The position numbers and the translations under genes are program-made. Positions 154 to 5,967 of a DNA stretch of 6,394 nucleotides are shown in pieces (the first letter of the stretch is position 1; each line of letters starts with the position of its first letter). The notes beneath the pieces are model-generated. The model was not told where the DNA came from, ran no database searches, and saw only the letters and a list, made by a program, of their open reading frames with translations. The DNA is taken from the NCBI GenBank assembly GCA_902803345.1, contig CADCPV010000267.1, forward strand, positions 1 to 6,394. Reading direction: 5' to 3'. This stretch comes from an uncultured Eubacteriales bacterium (GTDB lineage Bacteria; Bacillota_A; Clostridia; Lachnospirales; Lachnospiraceae).

Positions 154-1470
154 ATGTATAGAGATATCATAAACGATTTGAAGCAATGGAAGGATAAGAA
201 GCGCAGAAAACCACTCTTATTGACCGGTGTAAGACAGTGTGGGAAGACATATATCGTCGAGAAATTCGCAAAGGAATGCTTTGAAGAGTATGTTTACCTG
301 AACTTTGAAGCGACTCAGACGATATCAGCTGTTTTTGATTACGATTTTGATGTCAACAGGATTCTGACAGAGATAGAGAGGTATTGTAAAACAAAGATTA
401 TTCCGGGAAAGACGCTTGTTTTTTTTGATGAAATCCAGGAATGCCCCAGAGCAATCACAGCACTGAAATATTTCTGTGAGAATAAGAAAGAACTGCATTT
501 GGTGTGCGCAGGGTCTCTTCTGGGCGTATCAATAAAAAGAGAGCAAATATCCTTTCCGGTAGGAAAAGTGAACAGAATGCAGCTTTATCCGATGAGTTTT
601 AAAGAATTTGTGATTGCTAATGAGAGATCGGATCTGGTTGAAGTATTTAAAAACTGGCCGGTTAACCGGCCTGTTCCTGAACTGTATTCGGTTCCTATGA
701 AGAAGCTTCTTAAGGAGTATTACATTGTAGGCGGCATGCCGGAGGCTGTTAAAACATGGATTGAGACACACGATGCAGATGAAGTTGAAGCAGTCCAGAA
801 CGAAATACTGAACGATTATTCTGACGATTTTTCAAAGCATGCACCCGTTAATGAGATCCCGAAGATCAGATGGATATGGGATTCGGTTCCGCTACAGCTT
901 GCAAAGGAAAACAATAAGTTCGTGTTCTCTCATGTCAAAGAAGGAAAACGATCAGCAGAGTTGGAGGATGCATTGGAGTGGCTTTCAGATGCGGGCTTGA
1001 TCGTCAAAACCGAACTTGTAGAAAAGCCTGAGATACCTTTGTCTGGCTTTGCTGATAAGACCTATTTTAAAGTGTATATGTCAGATATAGGATTATTGAG
1101 AGCCAAATCAAAAGTGCCTGCCGGGACAGTTATGGAAGAGTCTGTTTTATATGACCGTTTCAAAGGCGCTTTTGCAGAAAATTATGTGCTGAACGAGTTG
1201 AAATCAACGGGCAAGCAACCGTATTTCTGGCGTTCCGGCAATACTGCAGAGATTGATTTTATATATGAAAATGATATGGACATCGTACCGGTAGAAGTCA
1301 AAGCGGCAGATAACACCCAGGCAAAAAGTTATAAGCAGTTCTGTAAGAAATACGAACCTCATAGTGGTATAAAGCTCTCACAGAAAAATATAGCCGAAAA
1401 TTTATGTGAAAAGACGGTGACATATAGTATCCCGCTGTACTTGGCCTGGAATATAGATTTCTATATATGA
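154..1470 (+). CDS. AAA+ ATPase with C-terminal DUF4143 domain
   Basis: A 438-residue cytoplasmic protein with no signal peptide or membrane segment. The N-terminal P-loop domain has Walker A GVRQCGKT (25-32), Walker B LVFFDEIQ (88-95, D92/E93) and a sensor-1-like AGS (119-121). The middle carries the family-typical YYIVGGMPEAV (189-199). The C-terminal DUF4143 part contains AENYV (341-345), EIDF (366-369) and PVEVKA (379-384). E342, D368, E381 and K383 are placed like a PD-(D/E)XK nuclease core. Length is normal for the family. The ATG is set by GGAGG at 145-149, 4 bases upstream, and by the promoter at 90-119. These ATPases are widespread, often multicopy, in gut bacteria and archaea; their role is not established, and nuclease activity is an inference. 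At about 40% GC in a sampled stretch, it is AT-richer than several neighbours. Confidence 0.93.
   Translation: MYRDIINDLKQWKDKKRRKPLLLTGVRQCGKTYIVEKFAKECFEEYVYLNFEATQTISAVFDYDFDVNRILTEIERYCKTKIIPGKTLVFFDEIQECPRAITALKYFCENKKELHLVCAGSLLGVSIKREQISFPVGKVNRMQLYPMSFKEFVIANERSDLVEVFKNWPVNRPVPELYSVPMKKLLKEYYIVGGMPEAVKTWIETHDADEVEAVQNEILNDYSDDFSKHAPVNEIPKIRWIWDSVPLQLAKENNKFVFSHVKEGKRSAELEDALEWLSDAGLIVKTELVEKPEIPLSGFADKTYFKVYMSDIGLLRAKSKVPAGTVMEESVLYDRFKGAFAENYVLNELKSTGKQPYFWRSGNTAEIDFIYENDMDIVPVEVKAADNTQAKSYKQFCKKYEPHSGIKLSQKNIAENLCEKTVTYSIPLYLAWNIDFYI
656..671. repeat. Perfect 16-bp palindrome inside the ATPase gene
   Basis: GGCCGGTTAACCGGCC reads the same on both strands with no mismatch or spacer. 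It encodes part of a W-P-V-N-R-P-V segment (residues 168-174) between the ATPase core and the GGMPEA motif. Roughly 0.1 such palindromes are expected by chance in a window this size. No function is evident. Confidence 0.5.
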
Positions 1471-1506
1471 TCTATAAATGCGGCGTTTGTGGGGAGGTGG
1501 TACTCT

Positions 1507-1593: not shown

Positions 1594-2184
1594 ATGAGTA
1601 AACTGGCAGTTTTCTTTCCGGGAATCGGTTATACTGTGGATAAGCCGCTGATGTACTACAGCCGGAAACTGGCGGCGGAGATTGGCTATGAAATCCGGCT
1701 GCTTTCATACAGCGGCTTTCCGGAAAAGAAACGAGGCGATGATGACAGGATGCAGAAATCTGTCCGGATAGCGATTGACCAGTCGCGGGAACAGATGAAA
1801 GATCTGGATCTGTCGGCGTACGAAGATGTCCTGTTTATCGGGAAAAGCATCGGAACCATCGCGTCAGCGGTTCTTTATTCGGAGAGTGCTGCGAAAGACC
1901 GTATCCGCCTGATCCTGTATACGCCGCTGGAGGAGACGTTTTCGCTTCTTCTGGGGAATACGATTGTCTTCACCGGTTCGAACGATCCCTGGGTCGGGAA
2001 AAACCGCATTCCGGAATTATGCAGAGAGCATTATATTCCCTGCCGGATCATTCCGGGAGGGAACCACTCGCTGGAGACCGGAAATACCTTTGAAGATATG
2101 AATAATCTTCTGAAGGTCATGGCGGACACAAGAACGTTTATTCTTGGCGAAAGTCTGATGCATGCTGTTGTAGAAAGAAAATAA
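1594..2184 (+). CDS. Small alpha/beta hydrolase family protein
   Basis: A 196-residue soluble protein with the landmarks of the alpha/beta hydrolase fold. It has a first strand and turn (LAVFFPGIGY, 4-13), a nucleophile elbow GKSIG (83-87, S85) matching GxSxG, a late acid in FTGSNDPW (D131), and a histidine in GGNHSLE (H158). A full Ser-Asp-His triad is therefore available. The substrate cannot be read from sequence; esterase, thioesterase or peptidase-like activity are all possible. The frame is open back to a GTG at 1489, but the extra 35 residues look non-native and that GTG lacks a ribosome-binding site. The ATG at 1594 starts exactly where the fold begins and has AAAGGA (1579-1584) and CAGGGA (1585-1590) just upstream. 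GC reaches about 48-53% in sampled lines, above the ATPase gene, which suggests a different origin. Confidence 0.85.
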   Translation: MSKLAVFFPGIGYTVDKPLMYYSRKLAAEIGYEIRLLSYSGFPEKKRGDDDRMQKSVRIAIDQSREQMKDLDLSAYEDVLFIGKSIGTIASAVLYSESAAKDRIRLILYTPLEETFSLLLGNTIVFTGSNDPWVGKNRIPELCREHYIPCRIIPGGNHSLETGNTFEDMNNLLKVMADTRTFILGESLMHAVVERK

Positions 2185-2239
2185 CAACTCGATCATTTGT
2201 CGGGATATTGCCAAAATTGGGATTTTTGGAGGTGTTTCA

Positions 2240-2752
2240 ATGGATAACACAAATTACGAGCTCAAAAACAAGGGCCTTCATCTGGTGAAGGCAGACAAAG
2301 AAAACTTCTGGACACTGATGGACCTGAGAGTCACAAAAGACCAGGAAGACTTCGTAGCCTCGAACGCAATCAGTCTGGCGCAGGCCTATGATACTTTGGC
2401 TGACGGTAAATTTGTCCAAGCCTTTGGCATCTGGGATGGTGAAACTCCTGTGGGTTTTGCTATGATCGACCACAATTCTGAAGAGTACGAAGAAATGCCT
2501 GAGGTCTATCGACATAGCTACTTTCTGTGGCGCTTTATGATCGATCAGCGATATCAAAAACGCGGCTACGGCAGAGATGCGCTGAAGCTGCTTTTGGATT
2601 ATGTCCGGAGCTTTCCGGACGGAGAAGAAAAGCTTTGGAGTACCTCCTGGGAGCCCGAAAATGAAGTTGCTGCAAAGCTTTATCACGAATTCGGCTTTAT
2701 AGAAAACGGCGAGATGGATGGAGACGAGATCGTTGCCGTTTTGGAACTCTGA
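2240..2752 (+). CDS. GNAT family N-acetyltransferase (spermine/spermidine acetyltransferase-like)
   Basis: A 170-residue protein with a complete GNAT fold, transferring acetyl from acetyl-CoA to an amine. The acetyl-CoA pyrophosphate loop is clear: QKRGYG (106-111) fits Q/R-x-x-G-x-G/A and follows the strand LWRFMID (96-102). Further on, EPENEVAAKLYHEFGF (138-153) is the usual C-terminal motif, with Y148 as the likely general-acid tyrosine. The N-terminal FVASNAISLAQAY (38-50) and FLWRFMI recall BltD-type polyamine acetyltransferases, but substrate assignment is inference. The ATG is fixed by GGAGG (2228-2232), 7 bases upstream. The gene starts 55 bases after the hydrolase stop and could share its transcript. 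A weak hairpin (2211-2216 with 2224-2229) overlaps the ribosome-binding site. A 260-codon frame on the opposite strand is only its shadow. Confidence 0.9.
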   Translation: MDNTNYELKNKGLHLVKADKENFWTLMDLRVTKDQEDFVASNAISLAQAYDTLADGKFVQAFGIWDGETPVGFAMIDHNSEEYEEMPEVYRHSYFLWRFMIDQRYQKRGYGRDALKLLLDYVRSFPDGEEKLWSTSWEPENEVAAKLYHEFGFIENGEMDGDEIVAVLEL

Positions 2753-2809: not shown

Positions 2810-3400
2810 ATGAATTTTGCTGATTGGAAGTGGCTGAATGAAAGCCAGGCAATTACTGTAAACGGGGAACTTGTAATTACAGCGCCCGCCAAAACAGACT
2901 GGTTTAATAATCCGGTCCCGGAGAATGGAGTGCTTTCGGCCCCGGTGGCAAATGCGCCGTTTTATTACACAGAGGTAACGGGCGACTTCGTCTTCAGGGC
3001 AAAGGTACGACCGAATCACAGATATGTATATGACGCTTGTGCTTTGATGGTGATCAAAGATGAATACACGTGGGCGAAGGCCGCTTTTGAAGCCTCTGAT
3101 TTCGGAACGAAGGCGGCTGTCTGTGTTGTGACCAATCAGATATCAGATGATGCGAACGGCTGCAATATTGATCAGGATGAAGCCTGGCTGCAGATTGTCC
3201 GAGTCGGAGATGTTTTCTGCGTGCATTATTCCCTGGACGGGAAACGGTTTGACATGGTCCGGCTTTTCCATCTGCCTGCGGGACAGAGCGTAAAGGTGGG
3301 ACTGGAAGCCCAGAGCCCGGCGGGAGACGGAGGACTCAGATTCTTCAGTGACATAACACTGGAGCACAGGACAGTGGAAAACTTACGGAAAGGATGCTGA
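2810..3400 (+). CDS. DUF1349 domain protein (concanavalin-A-like fold)
   Basis: A 196-residue soluble protein covering one DUF1349 domain, a beta-sandwich of the concanavalin A-like lectin/glucanase superfamily. Family-typical stretches are TDWFNNP (29-35), VTGDFVFRAKV (56-66), DACALMVIKD (75-84), WAKAAFE (88-94), SDDANG (112-117), WLQIVRVGDVFCVHYSLDG (126-144) and VGLEAQSP (163-170). There is no signal peptide, so it acts in the cytoplasm. The fold suggests binding of a carbohydrate or small ligand, but no activity is established for most members. The start is fixed by AAGGAG (2797-2802), 7 bases before the ATG. It lies 57 bases behind the first GNAT gene. By eye it is more GC-rich than the Nudix gene downstream. 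Confidence 0.88.
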   Translation: MNFADWKWLNESQAITVNGELVITAPAKTDWFNNPVPENGVLSAPVANAPFYYTEVTGDFVFRAKVRPNHRYVYDACALMVIKDEYTWAKAAFEASDFGTKAAVCVVTNQISDDANGCNIDQDEAWLQIVRVGDVFCVHYSLDGKRFDMVRLFHLPAGQSVKVGLEAQSPAGDGGLRFFSDITLEHRTVENLRKGC

Positions 3401-3460
3401 CAGGGTTGAAGCTGGAATCACGAAAAGTCCTGTACAAATTGGCAATATCGAAGCTTGCAG

Positions 3461-3472
3461 GGAGGGAAAGTG
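3461..3472 (+). promoter_or_regulatory. Ribosome-binding site that selects a GTG start for the AAC(6')-like gene
   Basis: GGAGG (3461-3465) lies 4 bases before GTG at 3470-3472. An in-frame TTG at 3455 would add five residues but would place this ribosome-binding site inside the coding region, and it has no site of its own. Starting at 3470 also gives an N-terminus (V/M-R-I-E-N-D-L-I-R-I-R) that aligns with the start of AAC(6')-Ie. Confidence 0.75.
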
Positions 3473-4006
3473 AGGATAGAAAACGATCTGATTCGGATCA
3501 GGGATTTCACCGAGGGTGATATTCCCCTGATGCTTAAATGGCTGACAGACGACAGGGTGTTGGAATACTATGAGGGGCGGGATGTCAGATTTACCATGGA
3601 TACTTTGGCGGCTCATTTTCTTGAAGGAATCCCCGACGGCTTCAGAGTGATTATCGAATACGGAGAACGACCAGTAGGATACGGTCAGGCTTATCAGCTG
3701 AGCGGAGAATTGTTCGAAGAATACGACTATCCCGATAACGGTAAAGTTGTATATGCCATGGATCAATTCATTGGCGAACCTTATTATTGGAATAGGGGAA
3801 TCGGCTCTGCGTTTCTGCAAATGATGGCTTCATATCTAAAAACCGATAAGGAAGCCGCCTGCATTTTGCTTGATCCACATAAAAACAATTACAGGGCAAT
3901 ACGTGCCTATGAGAAAGCAGGATTCAGAATCATTAAGGCTCTTCCTGAACATGAGCTCTTCGAAGGTGAAATGGCAGATTGCTGGTTGATGGAAAGAAAA
4001 CTGTAA
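3470..4006 (+). CDS. aac(6'): Aminoglycoside 6'-N-acetyltransferase, AAC(6')-Ie/Im-like, stand-alone
   Basis: A 178-residue GNAT protein expected to acetylate the 6'-amine of aminoglycosides with acetyl-CoA. It resembles, over its whole length, the N-terminal half of the bifunctional staphylococcal/enterococcal AAC(6')-Ie-APH(2'')-Ia enzyme as I recall it. Shared blocks include PLMLKWLTD (19-27), FRVIIEY (58-64), DQFIGEP (98-104), DPHKNN (135-140), RAIRAY (142-147) and LPEHEL (158-163). D98 corresponds to the Asp99 proposed as active-site base in AAC(6')-Ie. WNRGIG (107-112) is the CoA loop, with the same W in place of R/Q seen there. No APH(2'') domain follows: the frame stops at 4006 and a Nudix gene comes next. 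Actual resistance activity is inferred from conserved residues. The spacer before it (3401-3469) shows no strong promoter. Confidence 0.85.
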   Translation: MRIENDLIRIRDFTEGDIPLMLKWLTDDRVLEYYEGRDVRFTMDTLAAHFLEGIPDGFRVIIEYGERPVGYGQAYQLSGELFEEYDYPDNGKVVYAMDQFIGEPYYWNRGIGSAFLQMMASYLKTDKEAACILLDPHKNNYRAIRAYEKAGFRIIKALPEHELFEGEMADCWLMERKL

Positions 4007-4042
4007 CTTCGGTCTTTGATGACCTACCTGGACCGCCTGACA

Positions 4043-4059
4043 CTAAATCGGGCATTTAG
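4043..4059 (+). repeat. Short perfect inverted repeat before the Nudix gene
   Basis: CTAAAT (4043-4048) and ATTTAG (4054-4059) form a perfect 6-bp stem around a CGGGC loop. No T tract follows, so it is a poor terminator. It touches the AGAGGGA ribosome-binding site of the short frame at 4071, so if it forms in RNA it could modulate translation there. Confidence 0.3.
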
Positions 4060-4070
4060 AGGGAAATAAC

Positions 4071-4118
4071 ATGATAAGGTTTGAAACAGATATCGGGGCA
4101 ATGAAACATGGAGTATAA
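4071..4118 (+). CDS. Possible 15-codon leader peptide overlapping the Nudix start
   Basis: ATG at 4071 opens a 15-codon frame (MIRFETDIGAMKHGV) ending at TAA 4116-4118. Its ribosome-binding site, AGAGGGA (4058-4064) with a 6-base gap, is better than that of the Nudix gene, whose ATG at 4108 lies inside this frame in another phase. Ribosomes ending here could re-initiate at 4108. It could equally be a remnant: the peptide looks like the N-terminus of a longer protein. The short length keeps confidence low. Confidence 0.3.
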   Translation: MIRFETDIGAMKHGV

Positions 4119-4608
4119 AGATTATATCTGCAAAGATCAGGACGGAAATCTTCTCATTTTCGTTGATGGTGGCATAAACGAAGAGACTCTTTCTAATGAT
4201 CCTTTATTCACTCATTGTCTGGCTGTTGTTAAGGTCGGCGAAGAATATCTTTTGGGTCGTAATAAATGGAGAAACCGGTTCGAGATCTTCGGCGGATGCG
4301 CCGAAAAAGGCGAAACAGCCAGGGAATGTATAATCAGAGAGTGCTGCGAGGAATTGGGTTTTACTGCTTCTGATATTACATATATTGGTGCTATGAAGTT
4401 CTTGCTCAAACCGGACTATTTCTCCAAAGAAGAACGTATAGAACTGGGTGGCTTATACGGCGTAACTTTGCCGGATATGAGTGTAGATTCATTATATGGA
4501 ATGATTAAAGATAAAGATGAAATAACACAGTTTGCTTTGTACAGCAGGATTAAAGGCAATGAACCTATCGCGTTGATTGATGAAAAGCTGTTATCATACT
4601 ATGAGTAA
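4108..4608 (+). CDS. Nudix hydrolase
   Basis: A 166-residue soluble protein with a textbook Nudix box at residues 63-85: G63, E69, R77-E78, E81-E82 and G84-F85 satisfy Gx5Ex7REUxEExGU without deviation. Members hydrolyse nucleoside diphosphates linked to another moiety, using divalent metal held by the box glutamates. The N-terminal strand LAVVKVGEEYLLGRN (38-52) and RFEIFGG (57-63) are standard. The C-terminal part (about 95-166) gives no substrate clue; house-cleaning of oxidised or modified nucleotides is one possibility. The start is the first one available, since an in-frame TGA lies at 4102-4104. Its ribosome-binding site is weak (GGGG, 4095-4098), so it may depend on the overlapping short frame at 4071-4118. 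Sampled GC is about 30-43%, lower than its neighbours. Protein-like sequence continues in frame past the stop. Confidence 0.92.
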   Translation: MEYKDYICKDQDGNLLIFVDGGINEETLSNDPLFTHCLAVVKVGEEYLLGRNKWRNRFEIFGGCAEKGETARECIIRECCEELGFTASDITYIGAMKFLLKPDYFSKEERIELGGLYGVTLPDMSVDSLYGMIKDKDEITQFALYSRIKGNEPIALIDEKLLSYYE

Positions 4609-4735: not shown

Positions 4736-5260
4736 ATGATCAGAGAGGTCAAAAGGGATGATATTCCCGGATGTGTAGAGATTATTAGAAAGAGTTTTCA
4801 AACGGTGGCAGATGAATTTGGCTTCACTGCAGATAATGCCCCAAGGTTCACAGCATTCGCAATAACCGAAGAACGCCTGTATTGGCAGTTGGAAAATGAA
4901 CCGCGCCTGATGTTTGTTTATGAACGAGGCGGAGTTGCGTGTGGTTATTATTCGCTGCTGATACAGGACAACAATGAATGTGAACTCAATAATCTTGCGG
5001 TTCTTCCCGAATACAGATACTGCGGAATTGGCAGGGAATTATTGGAACATGCATATGAATCCGCAAAAAATCAGGGATGTAAGCGCATAAACATAGGAAT
5101 TGTAGAAGAAAACAAAAGACTTAGAAAATGGTATGAGCAGAATGGAGCAATTCATATCGGAACTAAGAAATATGATTTCTTCCCGTTTACGTGCGGATAT
5201 ATGGTGAAGGAAATCCGGGAAATCAACGCAGAATATAATGAGCCGTTTGTGCGCGGATAG
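4736..5260 (+). CDS. GNAT family N-acetyltransferase
   Basis: A 174-residue GNAT protein beginning with the common IREVKRDDIPGCVEIIRKSF-type first strand and helix (2-21). LNNLAVLPEYR (84-94) is the beta-4 strand, and RYCGIG (94-99) is the acetyl-CoA loop matching R-x-x-G-x-G. NKRLRKWYEQNGA (126-138) is the C-terminal motif, with Y133 the likely catalytic tyrosine. The substrate is unknown; it is not close to the AAC(6')-like protein upstream. The ATG is set by AAGGAA (4723-4728), 7 bases upstream. The next gene starts 8 bases after its TAG, so the two are almost certainly on one mRNA. The last 15 or so residues extend beyond the usual fold. Confidence 0.9.
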   Translation: MIREVKRDDIPGCVEIIRKSFQTVADEFGFTADNAPRFTAFAITEERLYWQLENEPRLMFVYERGGVACGYYSLLIQDNNECELNNLAVLPEYRYCGIGRELLEHAYESAKNQGCKRINIGIVEENKRLRKWYEQNGAIHIGTKKYDFFPFTCGYMVKEIREINAEYNEPFVRG

Positions 5261-5268
5261 GGATATTC

Positions 5269-5967
5269 ATGAACGCGAAACGGGGCTTTGTGCCGGAAGA
5301 CGAACGAAATTTTTCCGAAGAAGCGGCTGCGGGCATGCGGACGGCAGCCAGACAGATCATTTACCTGATCAATGAAGGGTATGACCTGAAGCAGTCGACG
5401 ACATTTGTCGGGAATCACTTTCAGCTTTCCGAGCGGCAGCGCCTTGCACTGATGAGGAGCCTGGCCGCGGATAAACAGCTGTCAGATAGGAAAAACAAAG
5501 AGAAATGCATCCGGCAGATTTCCGGGCAAAAGGTCTGGATTGACGGATTTAACACCATTATCACACTGGAGGTAATGCTGTCCGATTCAATCCTTTTTCA
5601 GGGAATGGACGGCTGTATCCGGGATCTAGCGGCACTCCGGGGAACATACCGGCTGATACCGGAAACAGAGCCGGCGGTGCGGATGATGATGAAACAGCTG
5701 GAGTCTGCGCAGGTTAAGAGTGCCGGCATTCTTCTGGATGAACCGGTATCCAATTCAGGGAGGCTGAAGGCACTGATTTCGGAGATTGCAGAAGAGTTCA
5801 GTTTTGGCGTCGATATTCAGATTCTCAGGGATGTAGATCGGGAACTGTATCAGAAAGAAAATGTGGTTACATCGGATGCAATTATTCTGGACCACTGCCG
5901 AAGCTGGGTAAATCTGACGGCTGAATGCCTGAAACAATACAGGAATTCGGTGATTCGGGTCTGGTGA
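5269..5967 (+). CDS. DUF434/DUF5616 domain protein
   Basis: A 232-residue soluble protein. The N-terminal helical domain (about 5-65), with RGFVPED (5-11), YLINEGYDLKQS (32-43), FVGNHFQLSERQRLAL (46-61), is typical of DUF434. A linker leads to a C-terminal alpha/beta domain (about 85-225) matching DUF5616: WIDGFNTIITLE (90-101), DGCIRDL (114-120), LLDEPVSNSG (155-164), SDAIILD (202-208) and W213. Acidic residues D92, E101, D119, D157 and D203 occur after predicted strands, as in PIN-like metal-dependent nucleases; that likeness is my inference, and the family has no established function. The ATG follows AGGGA (5259-5263) with a 5-base gap, overlapping the preceding gene's stop. One sampled line has about 57% GC, the highest I counted. 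No terminator is visible after it. Confidence 0.9.
   Translation: MNAKRGFVPEDERNFSEEAAAGMRTAARQIIYLINEGYDLKQSTTFVGNHFQLSERQRLALMRSLAADKQLSDRKNKEKCIRQISGQKVWIDGFNTIITLEVMLSDSILFQGMDGCIRDLAALRGTYRLIPETEPAVRMMMKQLESAQVKSAGILLDEPVSNSGRLKALISEIAEEFSFGVDIQILRDVDRELYQKENVVTSDAIILDHCRSWVNLTAECLKQYRNSVIRVW

Follow-up and report, generated by a model that had tools for sequence, protein, structure and literature searches.

A stand-alone AAC(6')-like acetyltransferase gene of a probable gut or rumen bacterium in a cassette-like array of small genes with a recurring palindromic site

The best-described relatives of the gene considered here are the aminoglycoside 6'-acetyltransferases AAC(6')-Ie, which in the clinical AAC(6')-Ie/APH(2'') fusion is joined to a second resistance domain, and AAC(6')-Im, which stands alone. 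In kanamycin complexes, as described in the structural account, Tyr34 packs on the A ring of the drug and Trp54 on the C ring, and in Im Asp99 orients the N6' amine (PMC5722643). Among arrays of mobile genes the nearest parallels are the Acinetobacter dif (pdif) modules and the gene cassettes of integrons. The attC sites of the latter have the core consensus RYYYAAC and GTTRRRY. Integrons are described as very rarely reported from Firmicutes (PMC9024848).

Here we set against these systems a 6.4-kb window (the whole stretch of DNA that was analysed), in which nine genes are predicted, all on the + strand, the ninth being truncated by the window end. Our reading is that it holds a stand-alone AAC(6')-type GNAT of a clade sister to those of Ie and Im, placed in a cassette-like array whose units are exchanged at a palindrome, and we give this joint reading a probability of roughly two in three. 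It draws directly on homology, active-site conservation, clade membership, near-identical sister copies, junctions at the site and the sites within the window. On this reading the AAC gene is a unit among small genes that follow one another on the same strand, a short imperfect palindrome lying between several of them. Such genes would pass from one rumen bacterium to another in compact form, with their joints inside the palindrome, presumably by site-specific recombination.

The acetyltransferase and its relatives

The frame of the AAC gene is open throughout from GTG 3470 to the stop codon TAA (4006) and encodes 178 residues. As a candidate start GTG 3470 is the better match than TTG 3455, which would open a longer frame, because a GGGAGG stretch precedes it and its position agrees with the start in relatives. 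Pfam and NCBIfam both assign the product to the GNATs. The top NCBIfam models are those for the AAC(6')-Ie family (NF033693, 234.5 bits where the curated cut-off is 340), Ie (222.9 bits) and Im (214.0 bits), all three matches falling below the models' own curated cut-offs, and the nearest solved structures are PDB 4qc6 (Ie, E 2.7e-64) and 6bff (Im, E 1.7e-63), a likeness to Ie and Im that by these scores far exceeds chance. Homology with Ie is full-length, at 55.4% identity over 175 aligned residues, and identity to Im is 54.9% over 173. The preliminary description of this DNA had pointed to the blocks DQFIGEP, DPHKNN, RAIRAY and LPEHEL and had taken the protein for a stand-alone member of the Ie/Im kind; all of these blocks are found in the translation, and the identity of about 55% to both enzymes agrees with the structure and NCBIfam matches. 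Its further remark that no APH(2'') domain follows is borne out, in that none of the nine proteins predicted in the window (the ninth cut short) showed an APH domain and the gene directly 3' encodes a NUDIX protein, so the C-terminal APH(2'') domain of the bifunctional enzyme is absent.

Among 5.8 billion proteins searched there were 261 homologues; of the 120 listed, nearly all are 170-210 residues long and the closest are 84-89% identical (the window's own entry excluded). A scan with one genome per species gave 45 AAC loci, many with ruminant-gut titles, in Lachnospiraceae, Oscillospiraceae, Mogibacterium, Coriobacteriia, Spirochaetes and others. The maximum-likelihood tree comprises 79 hand-chosen rows, which include 34 of the 45 genome loci (those with a match covering most of the protein; L024, L025 and L036-L044 were dropped) and 39 of 228 listed proteins. 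In it the window falls in a separate clade of 37 rows (support 94/97), whose titled members are mostly ruminant-gut; the Ie clade has 20 rows (94/82), the Im clade 7 rows (99/98), among them identical Eisenbergiella genes, and the outgroup branch is very long. In the phylogeny that had been proposed as a check, the window lies outside the Ie and Im clades, in a clade that is sister to both. Its relatives point to gut or rumen bacteria, in keeping with the gut-commensal origin first proposed, and the profile, structure, homologue and tree results also favour the earlier suggestion of a new type: judged by its relatives, the gene is probably a new AAC(6') type of gut and rumen bacteria.

Several members of the wider family deserve separate mention. 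In Eisenbergiella porci and E. tayi (L026, L027) the protein is identical to clinical AAC(6')-Im over 173 residues, and the four loci L026-L029 have about 950 nt upstream in common. In two loci (L004:7467-8534 and L021:2169-3254) the open AAC frame extends well upstream, to 355 and 361 aa, which gives it the look of an in-frame fusion to another domain. A single Eggerthellaceae contig holds two distant AAC relatives (L032 and L033), and these copies are 93.5% identical over 679 nt, upstream sequence included.

It had also been suggested that the AAC(6')-Ie/APH(2'') fusion may have its origin in a reservoir lineage to which the window gene belongs. The gene is of the same family, stands alone and comes from gut bacteria, all of which would suit such a source. 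With Ie as the query, however, the search returned a protein of 184 aa (P0126), apparently stand-alone and 86% identical to Ie, and fused AAC-APH proteins, with APH(2'')-type domains by profile match, are also in the Ie clade: one of 484 aa from Yanshouia hominis, whose AAC part has 88% identity to Ie, and one from a Mucispirillum MAG. Because these stand-alone and fused relatives at 86-88% identity group with Ie, and the window protein has 55%, the tree makes the window lineage sister to Ie and Im and not the source of the fusion, and we consider a reservoir role extremely improbable.

The fused protein of Yanshouia hominis (L023:6961-8415) is a complete AAC(6')-Ie/APH(2'')-Ia-like fusion, with a stretch of 1787 nt that is 81% DNA-identical to the Staphylococcus aureus plasmid copy. 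In the Mucispirillum MAG (L035:340-1788) the partner of the Ie-type AAC domain is an APH(2'') domain with a higher score for the APH(2'')-Ie/IVa family (225.9 bits) than for the Ia/If/Ih family (170.4 bits), a pairing that suggests a second fusion event or a domain swap.

By alignment the window protein has Tyr34, Ile54, Glu84 (position 85), Asp98 (99) and Asp135 (136), Asp98 corresponding to Asp99 of Ie and Im; the preliminary description took this aspartate for the catalytic base, a putative role. The positions of Tyr34, Asp99 and Asp136 are invariant in all 37 rows of the window clade. Compared with Ie, the loop after helix alpha3 is one residue shorter in the alignment and Ile replaces Trp54; compared with Im, with which it has Glu at position 85 in common, the window protein likewise has no Trp54 and carries Glu rather than Asp at 35. 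Trp54 occurs in none of the 37 window-clade rows, where the position holds Ile (32), Leu (3) or Phe (2) and is directly followed by Pro in every row; it occurs in 16 of 20 Ie-clade rows, in all 7 Im-clade rows and in 0 of the 12 other rows. Since it is absent outside these three clades too, Trp54 may be a gain in Ie and Im, not a loss in the window clade.

The window GNAT would most likely transfer acetyl from acetyl-CoA onto the 6'-amine of aminoglycosides, which would make it an aminoglycoside 6'-acetyltransferase whose contact with the C ring differs; its enzymatic activity and contribution to resistance are predictions from sequence. An alternative is that it is a GNAT for another amine substrate and confers no aminoglycoside resistance. 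GNATs switch substrate readily. Trp54 is missing from every window-clade row and from all 12 rows outside the three clades, and the score lies below the NCBI cut-off for the Ie family, both of which would fit such a change; against it, the active-site positions and the DQFIGEP and DPHKNN blocks are retained, the two closest solved proteins are both aminoglycoside enzymes, and Trp54 is described as contacting the C ring only (PMC5722643). We regard another substrate as unlikely, while noting that, with Trp54 absent and the score below the cut-off, the drug spectrum is not predictable from sequence.

The array and its palindromic sites

The genes and sites of the window are collected in Table 1. 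The preliminary description had spoken of a chromosomal-style gene array; the array is there, and the description is understated in that the gaps hold an oriented recurring site at which related genes swap neighbours.

Table 1. Predicted genes and palindromic sites of the window
Feature	Position	Strand	Basis
AAA_14/DUF4143 ATPase gene, first of the window	154..1470	+	ORF, Pfam, PADLOC
A-type site before hydrolase-like gene, AAATGCGGCGTTTGTGGGGAGG	1476..1497	+	motif scan
Alpha/beta-hydrolase-like small gene (open from GTG 1489)	1594..2184	+	weak Pfam match, below cut-off
B-type site after hydrolase gene, AACTCGATCATTTGTCGGG	2186..2204	+	motif scan
A-type site before first small GNAT gene, AAATTGGGATTTTTGGAGG	2214..2232	+	motif scan
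GNAT gene	2240..2752	+	NCBIfam, Pfam
DUF1349 gene	2810..3400	+	Pfam
A-type site before AAC gene, CAATATCGAAGCTTGCAGGGAGG	3443..3465	+	comparison with L037/L040
AAC(6')-Ie/Im-like stand-alone GNAT gene, 178 aa, GTG start	3470..4006	+	ORF frame, profile and structure-database matches, tree, alignment
Degenerate B-type site over AAC stop codon, AACTTCGGTCTTTG	4005..4018	+	by eye; outside pattern count
A-type site before NUDIX gene, AAATCGGGCATTTAGAGGG	4045..4063	+	motif scan
NUDIX gene	4108..4608	+	NCBIfam, Pfam
GNAT gene (second)	4736..5260	+	NCBIfam, Pfam
DUF434/DUF5616 gene	5269..5967	+	Pfam

The core of the site is an imperfect palindrome, CAAAT-N4-RTTTG, that recurs between small genes in two types. 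The A type (CAAATCG..., CAAATCGNNRTTTG) lies before gene starts and is followed by a G-rich stretch, and the B type (CAAATTC..., CAAATTCNNGTTTG) lies at or after stops; at several loci B and A are 26 nt apart and form a compact double site. The B and A sites that follow the hydrolase gene in the window also make up a compact double site. The general form of the motif gives four sites in the window (at 1476, 2186, 2214 and 4045), all on the + strand in gaps and none on the opposite strand, with a mean of 0.03 gap sites in 2000 second-order Markov resamples, none of which reaches four; a looser form gives five in gaps (equalled by no resample), seven on the + strand overall (P 0.059) and three on the other, and these resampling probabilities flatter the result, the pattern having been fixed with the window sites in view. 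With the general pattern there is no site in the gaps before the DUF1349 gene, before the second GNAT gene or around the DUF434 gene. The site before the AAC gene equals the corresponding site of L037/L040 at 20 of 23 bases, and as it precedes a homologous gene it is no independent occurrence. The window has the look of a further array of this kind, one that has diverged more, and its own gene may have moved as a unit, although its AAC copy was not found in a second context. No tRNA was found in the window and no Rfam RNA at gathering thresholds. The ATPase at its start matches the PADLOC candidate-defence models PDC-S01 (E 3.8e-173).

One form of the motif, counted over 49 loci and the window, gave 29 matches on the gene strand and none on the opposite strand, against about two expected, a count to which every AAC copy adds its own site. 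Of 89 distinct sites, 9 were dropped as preceding the AAC gene, and at least one of those retained (L140) also precedes an AAC remnant. Among the resulting 80 sites a stop codon lies within 60 nt upstream in 49 (random 16%; other strand 19 of 80) and both a stop and a start are present at 21 (random 5.7%; other strand 4); start codons after the sites are not enriched (37 of 80, random 39%). In a survey of 200 genomes the pattern occurred 34 times in 21 genomes, with one occurrence of the reversed-pattern control, and among 79 genomes of the genus of G005 it occurred 71 times in 37 genomes, with 15 for the control. The compact double site was found in one of 391 genomes of the class, namely the already known genome of L037 (G565). 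The idea that the double site forms a hairpin found no support, the compact sites folding no better than shuffled sequence (mean z -0.58 for the top and -0.70 for the bottom strand, over 11 pattern hits of which some are apparently spurious). In the MAG genome G009, B and A sites bound a repeat of about 243 bp that is 91-94.5% identical between four places and can be read by eye as a terminator plus a promoter. A search of open-licence papers, with queries that did not include the letters of the site, found no description of it.

Change of neighbours at the site

A sister gene, whose protein is 74% identical to that of the window, occurs in nine loci (L005-L011, L013 and L031) of genomes that span at least four families, six being isolates by title (Eubacterium ruminantium FB3002, Ruminococcus flavefaciens FD-1, Butyrivibrio NC2002 and AE3009, Lachnospiraceae P6A3 and YSD2013). 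Among the 70 of 703 pair rows listed, the copies are 97.5-99.5% identical in DNA, and in most of these pairs the match begins 18-43 nt before the coding sequence and ends 3-28 nt past it. The shared stretch is usually just 570-590 nt or so between unrelated flanks; exceptions are L007/L008, with 169 nt upstream in common, and L005/L011, with the following gene, a GNAT, in common. The proteins are identical in six of the nine loci. At the left junctions the GTTTG core is present in all nine copies, ahead of a ribosome-site-like stretch, and at the right junctions the core is present in eight, seven with ATTC-NN-GTTTG and L009 with GCTTG; at the right end of the L031 copy there is no site.

Short shared blocks of this kind might also be produced if the palindromes were control elements of leaders and stops, such as ribosome-site hairpins, and selection acted on gene plus leader after ordinary transfer. 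A sites do overlap the ribosome-site-like stretch, and small local hairpins are predicted in some sites. The core follows stop codons too, however, as the count of 49 in 80 attests, and the near-identity of the copies allows little divergence time, yet most flanks are unrelated; we think this explanation improbable.

Nine contigs (L024, L025, L036-L038, L040-L042 and L109) end inside the AAC gene, a pattern to be expected where near-identical copies, present in several genomes, interrupt the assembly. In Butyrivibrio NC2002 (L013:8658-9211) a MazE/PemK-like gene pair directly follows the AAC unit and lies in a block common to many Butyrivibrio genomes. The shared blocks of this locus were considered as a pure cassette array and rejected as such, the block-end test, the MazE/PemK-like pair and a terminator-like repeat indicating other causes as well. 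Partial AAC remnants occur at similar junctions in two further loci, L174 (G626) and L173 (G632).

Genes other than AAC also change neighbour at the site. The tail of a 288-aa gene (L008:7093-7959) has the same bases up to AAATTC in L007, L008, L218 and L219 and then four continuations, of which those of L007 and L008 are both the AAC gene, with different core bases, and those of L218 and L219 are from one genome. Gene X (183 aa, L105:7420-7971), found in L010, L038, L105 and L189, diverges right after AAATTC, L010 and L038 both leading into AAC; its copy in L017 has no site at the end. A small Ruminococcus block that runs between AAATCGG and AAATT is common to L011 and L220, which differ on either side of it; a cyclase gene common to L006 and L012 has site-like bases at both ends (diverged in L012), and one GNAT gene stands after AAC in L019 and before it in L040. 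The general mark of cassette-like systems, one gene with different neighbours exactly at a recurring site, is observed; no true empty site was found, and in its place there is an identical left neighbour with differing right neighbours.

How far the site marks the ends of shared blocks can be put in numbers. AAC blocks end near the motif in 51 of 77 pairs on the left and 39 of 77 on the right, pairs that are not independent of one another, while at six shifted positions the counts never exceed 8 and 7 of 77. For distinct non-AAC blocks the counts are 8 of 64 (left) and 7 of 64 (right), with 0-1 and 0-4 at shifted positions. For AAC the link between site and block end is strong; for other genes it is real but partial, and because few non-AAC shared blocks end near the motif, much of the local mosaicism has other causes.

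Two mechanisms of joining are live, site-specific exchange by a putative enzyme and short-homology recombination, the first being somewhat ahead because the joins are precise. Under the second, the palindrome would simply be a repeat that is frequent between genes, at which homology or microhomology leads to joining incidentally and no dedicated recombinase acts. This would agree with the modest tie, at most, of non-AAC block ends to sites, with the lack of a complete recombinase close to the compared sites, and with L174, where the joint of a partial AAC copy lies at an internal AAATTCCAG that matches a B site over 9 bases, which speaks for loose specificity or short homology. It sits less well with unrelated partners that diverge directly after AAATTC, which leaves few bases of homology, with the orientation of the sites and their position near stops, and with the several units that have sites at both ends. 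Short-homology recombination is in our estimate doubtful, though a serious contender.

Comparison with integrons and other mobile systems

A dedicated enzyme was sought in the genomes that carry the site. None of 12 host genomes has a match to the integron integrase model TIGR02249 over the cut-off, the best reaching 80.3 bits against 265 and being taken for an ordinary Xer-type protein. Tyrosine recombinases are present in all 13 genomes examined from the genus of G005. The 33 sites of these genomes include 18 on contigs that lack a tyrosine recombinase and one that has a recombinase fragment of 104 aa 2.2 kb away; the next nearest recombinase is at 14.7 kb, so that no complete recombinase was found near the compared sites. 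The fragment is an open frame with a tyrosine-recombinase match (G590:C12:391212-391391); together with the finding that G565 is the genome of L037, it slightly lowers our confidence.

Plasmids and phages were compared as possible carriers. The window DNA has no near match among plasmids, and among the plasmid matches listed the best protein reaches 55.1% identity over 98% coverage; of the 4296 records a single one, outside those listed, falls in the 60-80% identity band. Among phage records the best match to the window protein (54.5%) is the known fusion. In viral contigs two protein searches confirmed no AAC, and the DNA pattern picked out three stretches, of which that of L109 shows weak matches to tail and endolysin families and then, at the contig end, a site and the start of an AAC gene; phages may carry such units. 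The composite double site was not found in phages, and its three matches in plasmids (E about 1) were taken as chance and set aside.

As a broader proposal, Clostridia of rumen and gut, and probably further phyla of the gut as well, would have a cassette system that is neither integron nor dif, in which apparently promoterless genes of about 0.2-1 kb are joined within CAAAT-N4-RTTTG by a putative recombinase acting away from the array, AAC being among the most widely shared cassettes. We offer this tentatively, at odds short of even. In rumen Firmicutes a short site appears to serve for the exchange of genes as cassettes. If so, there would be a testable account of how near-identical small genes come to lie in unrelated rumen species without a transposon, one that covers a type of antibiotic-modifying gene among them. 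For resistance surveillance the analysis adds a clade of stand-alone AAC(6')-like proteins whose scored members fall below the NCBI cut-off for the Ie family, and it points to another gut lineage as the place to look for the source of the clinical AAC(6')-Ie/APH(2'') fusion.

Integron cassettes resemble the present arrays in that small same-strand genes lie between recurring sites and are exchanged by unit, and on that likeness a classical integron, with integron integrase and attC sites, might be supposed. The core here is CAAAT-N4-RTTTG and not RYYYAAC/GTTRRRY, a pair of which, 35-160 nt apart, occurs on neither strand of the window; no integrase exceeds the cut-off in the 12 genomes, and the 11 pattern hits that were folded show no sign of an attC-like fold. 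A classical integron is accordingly very improbable. The pdif modules, compared here by their description, also consist of genes between short recombination sites, which in dif modules alternate in orientation and have XerC/XerD half-sites; the matches to one motif form in our loci lie on the gene strand, 29 to none, and their core is another short palindrome. The recurring site matches no mobile system that the analysis could recognise. As an enzyme, then, the window protein joins a known kind; as a cassette-like unit, its gene possibly belongs to a new system.
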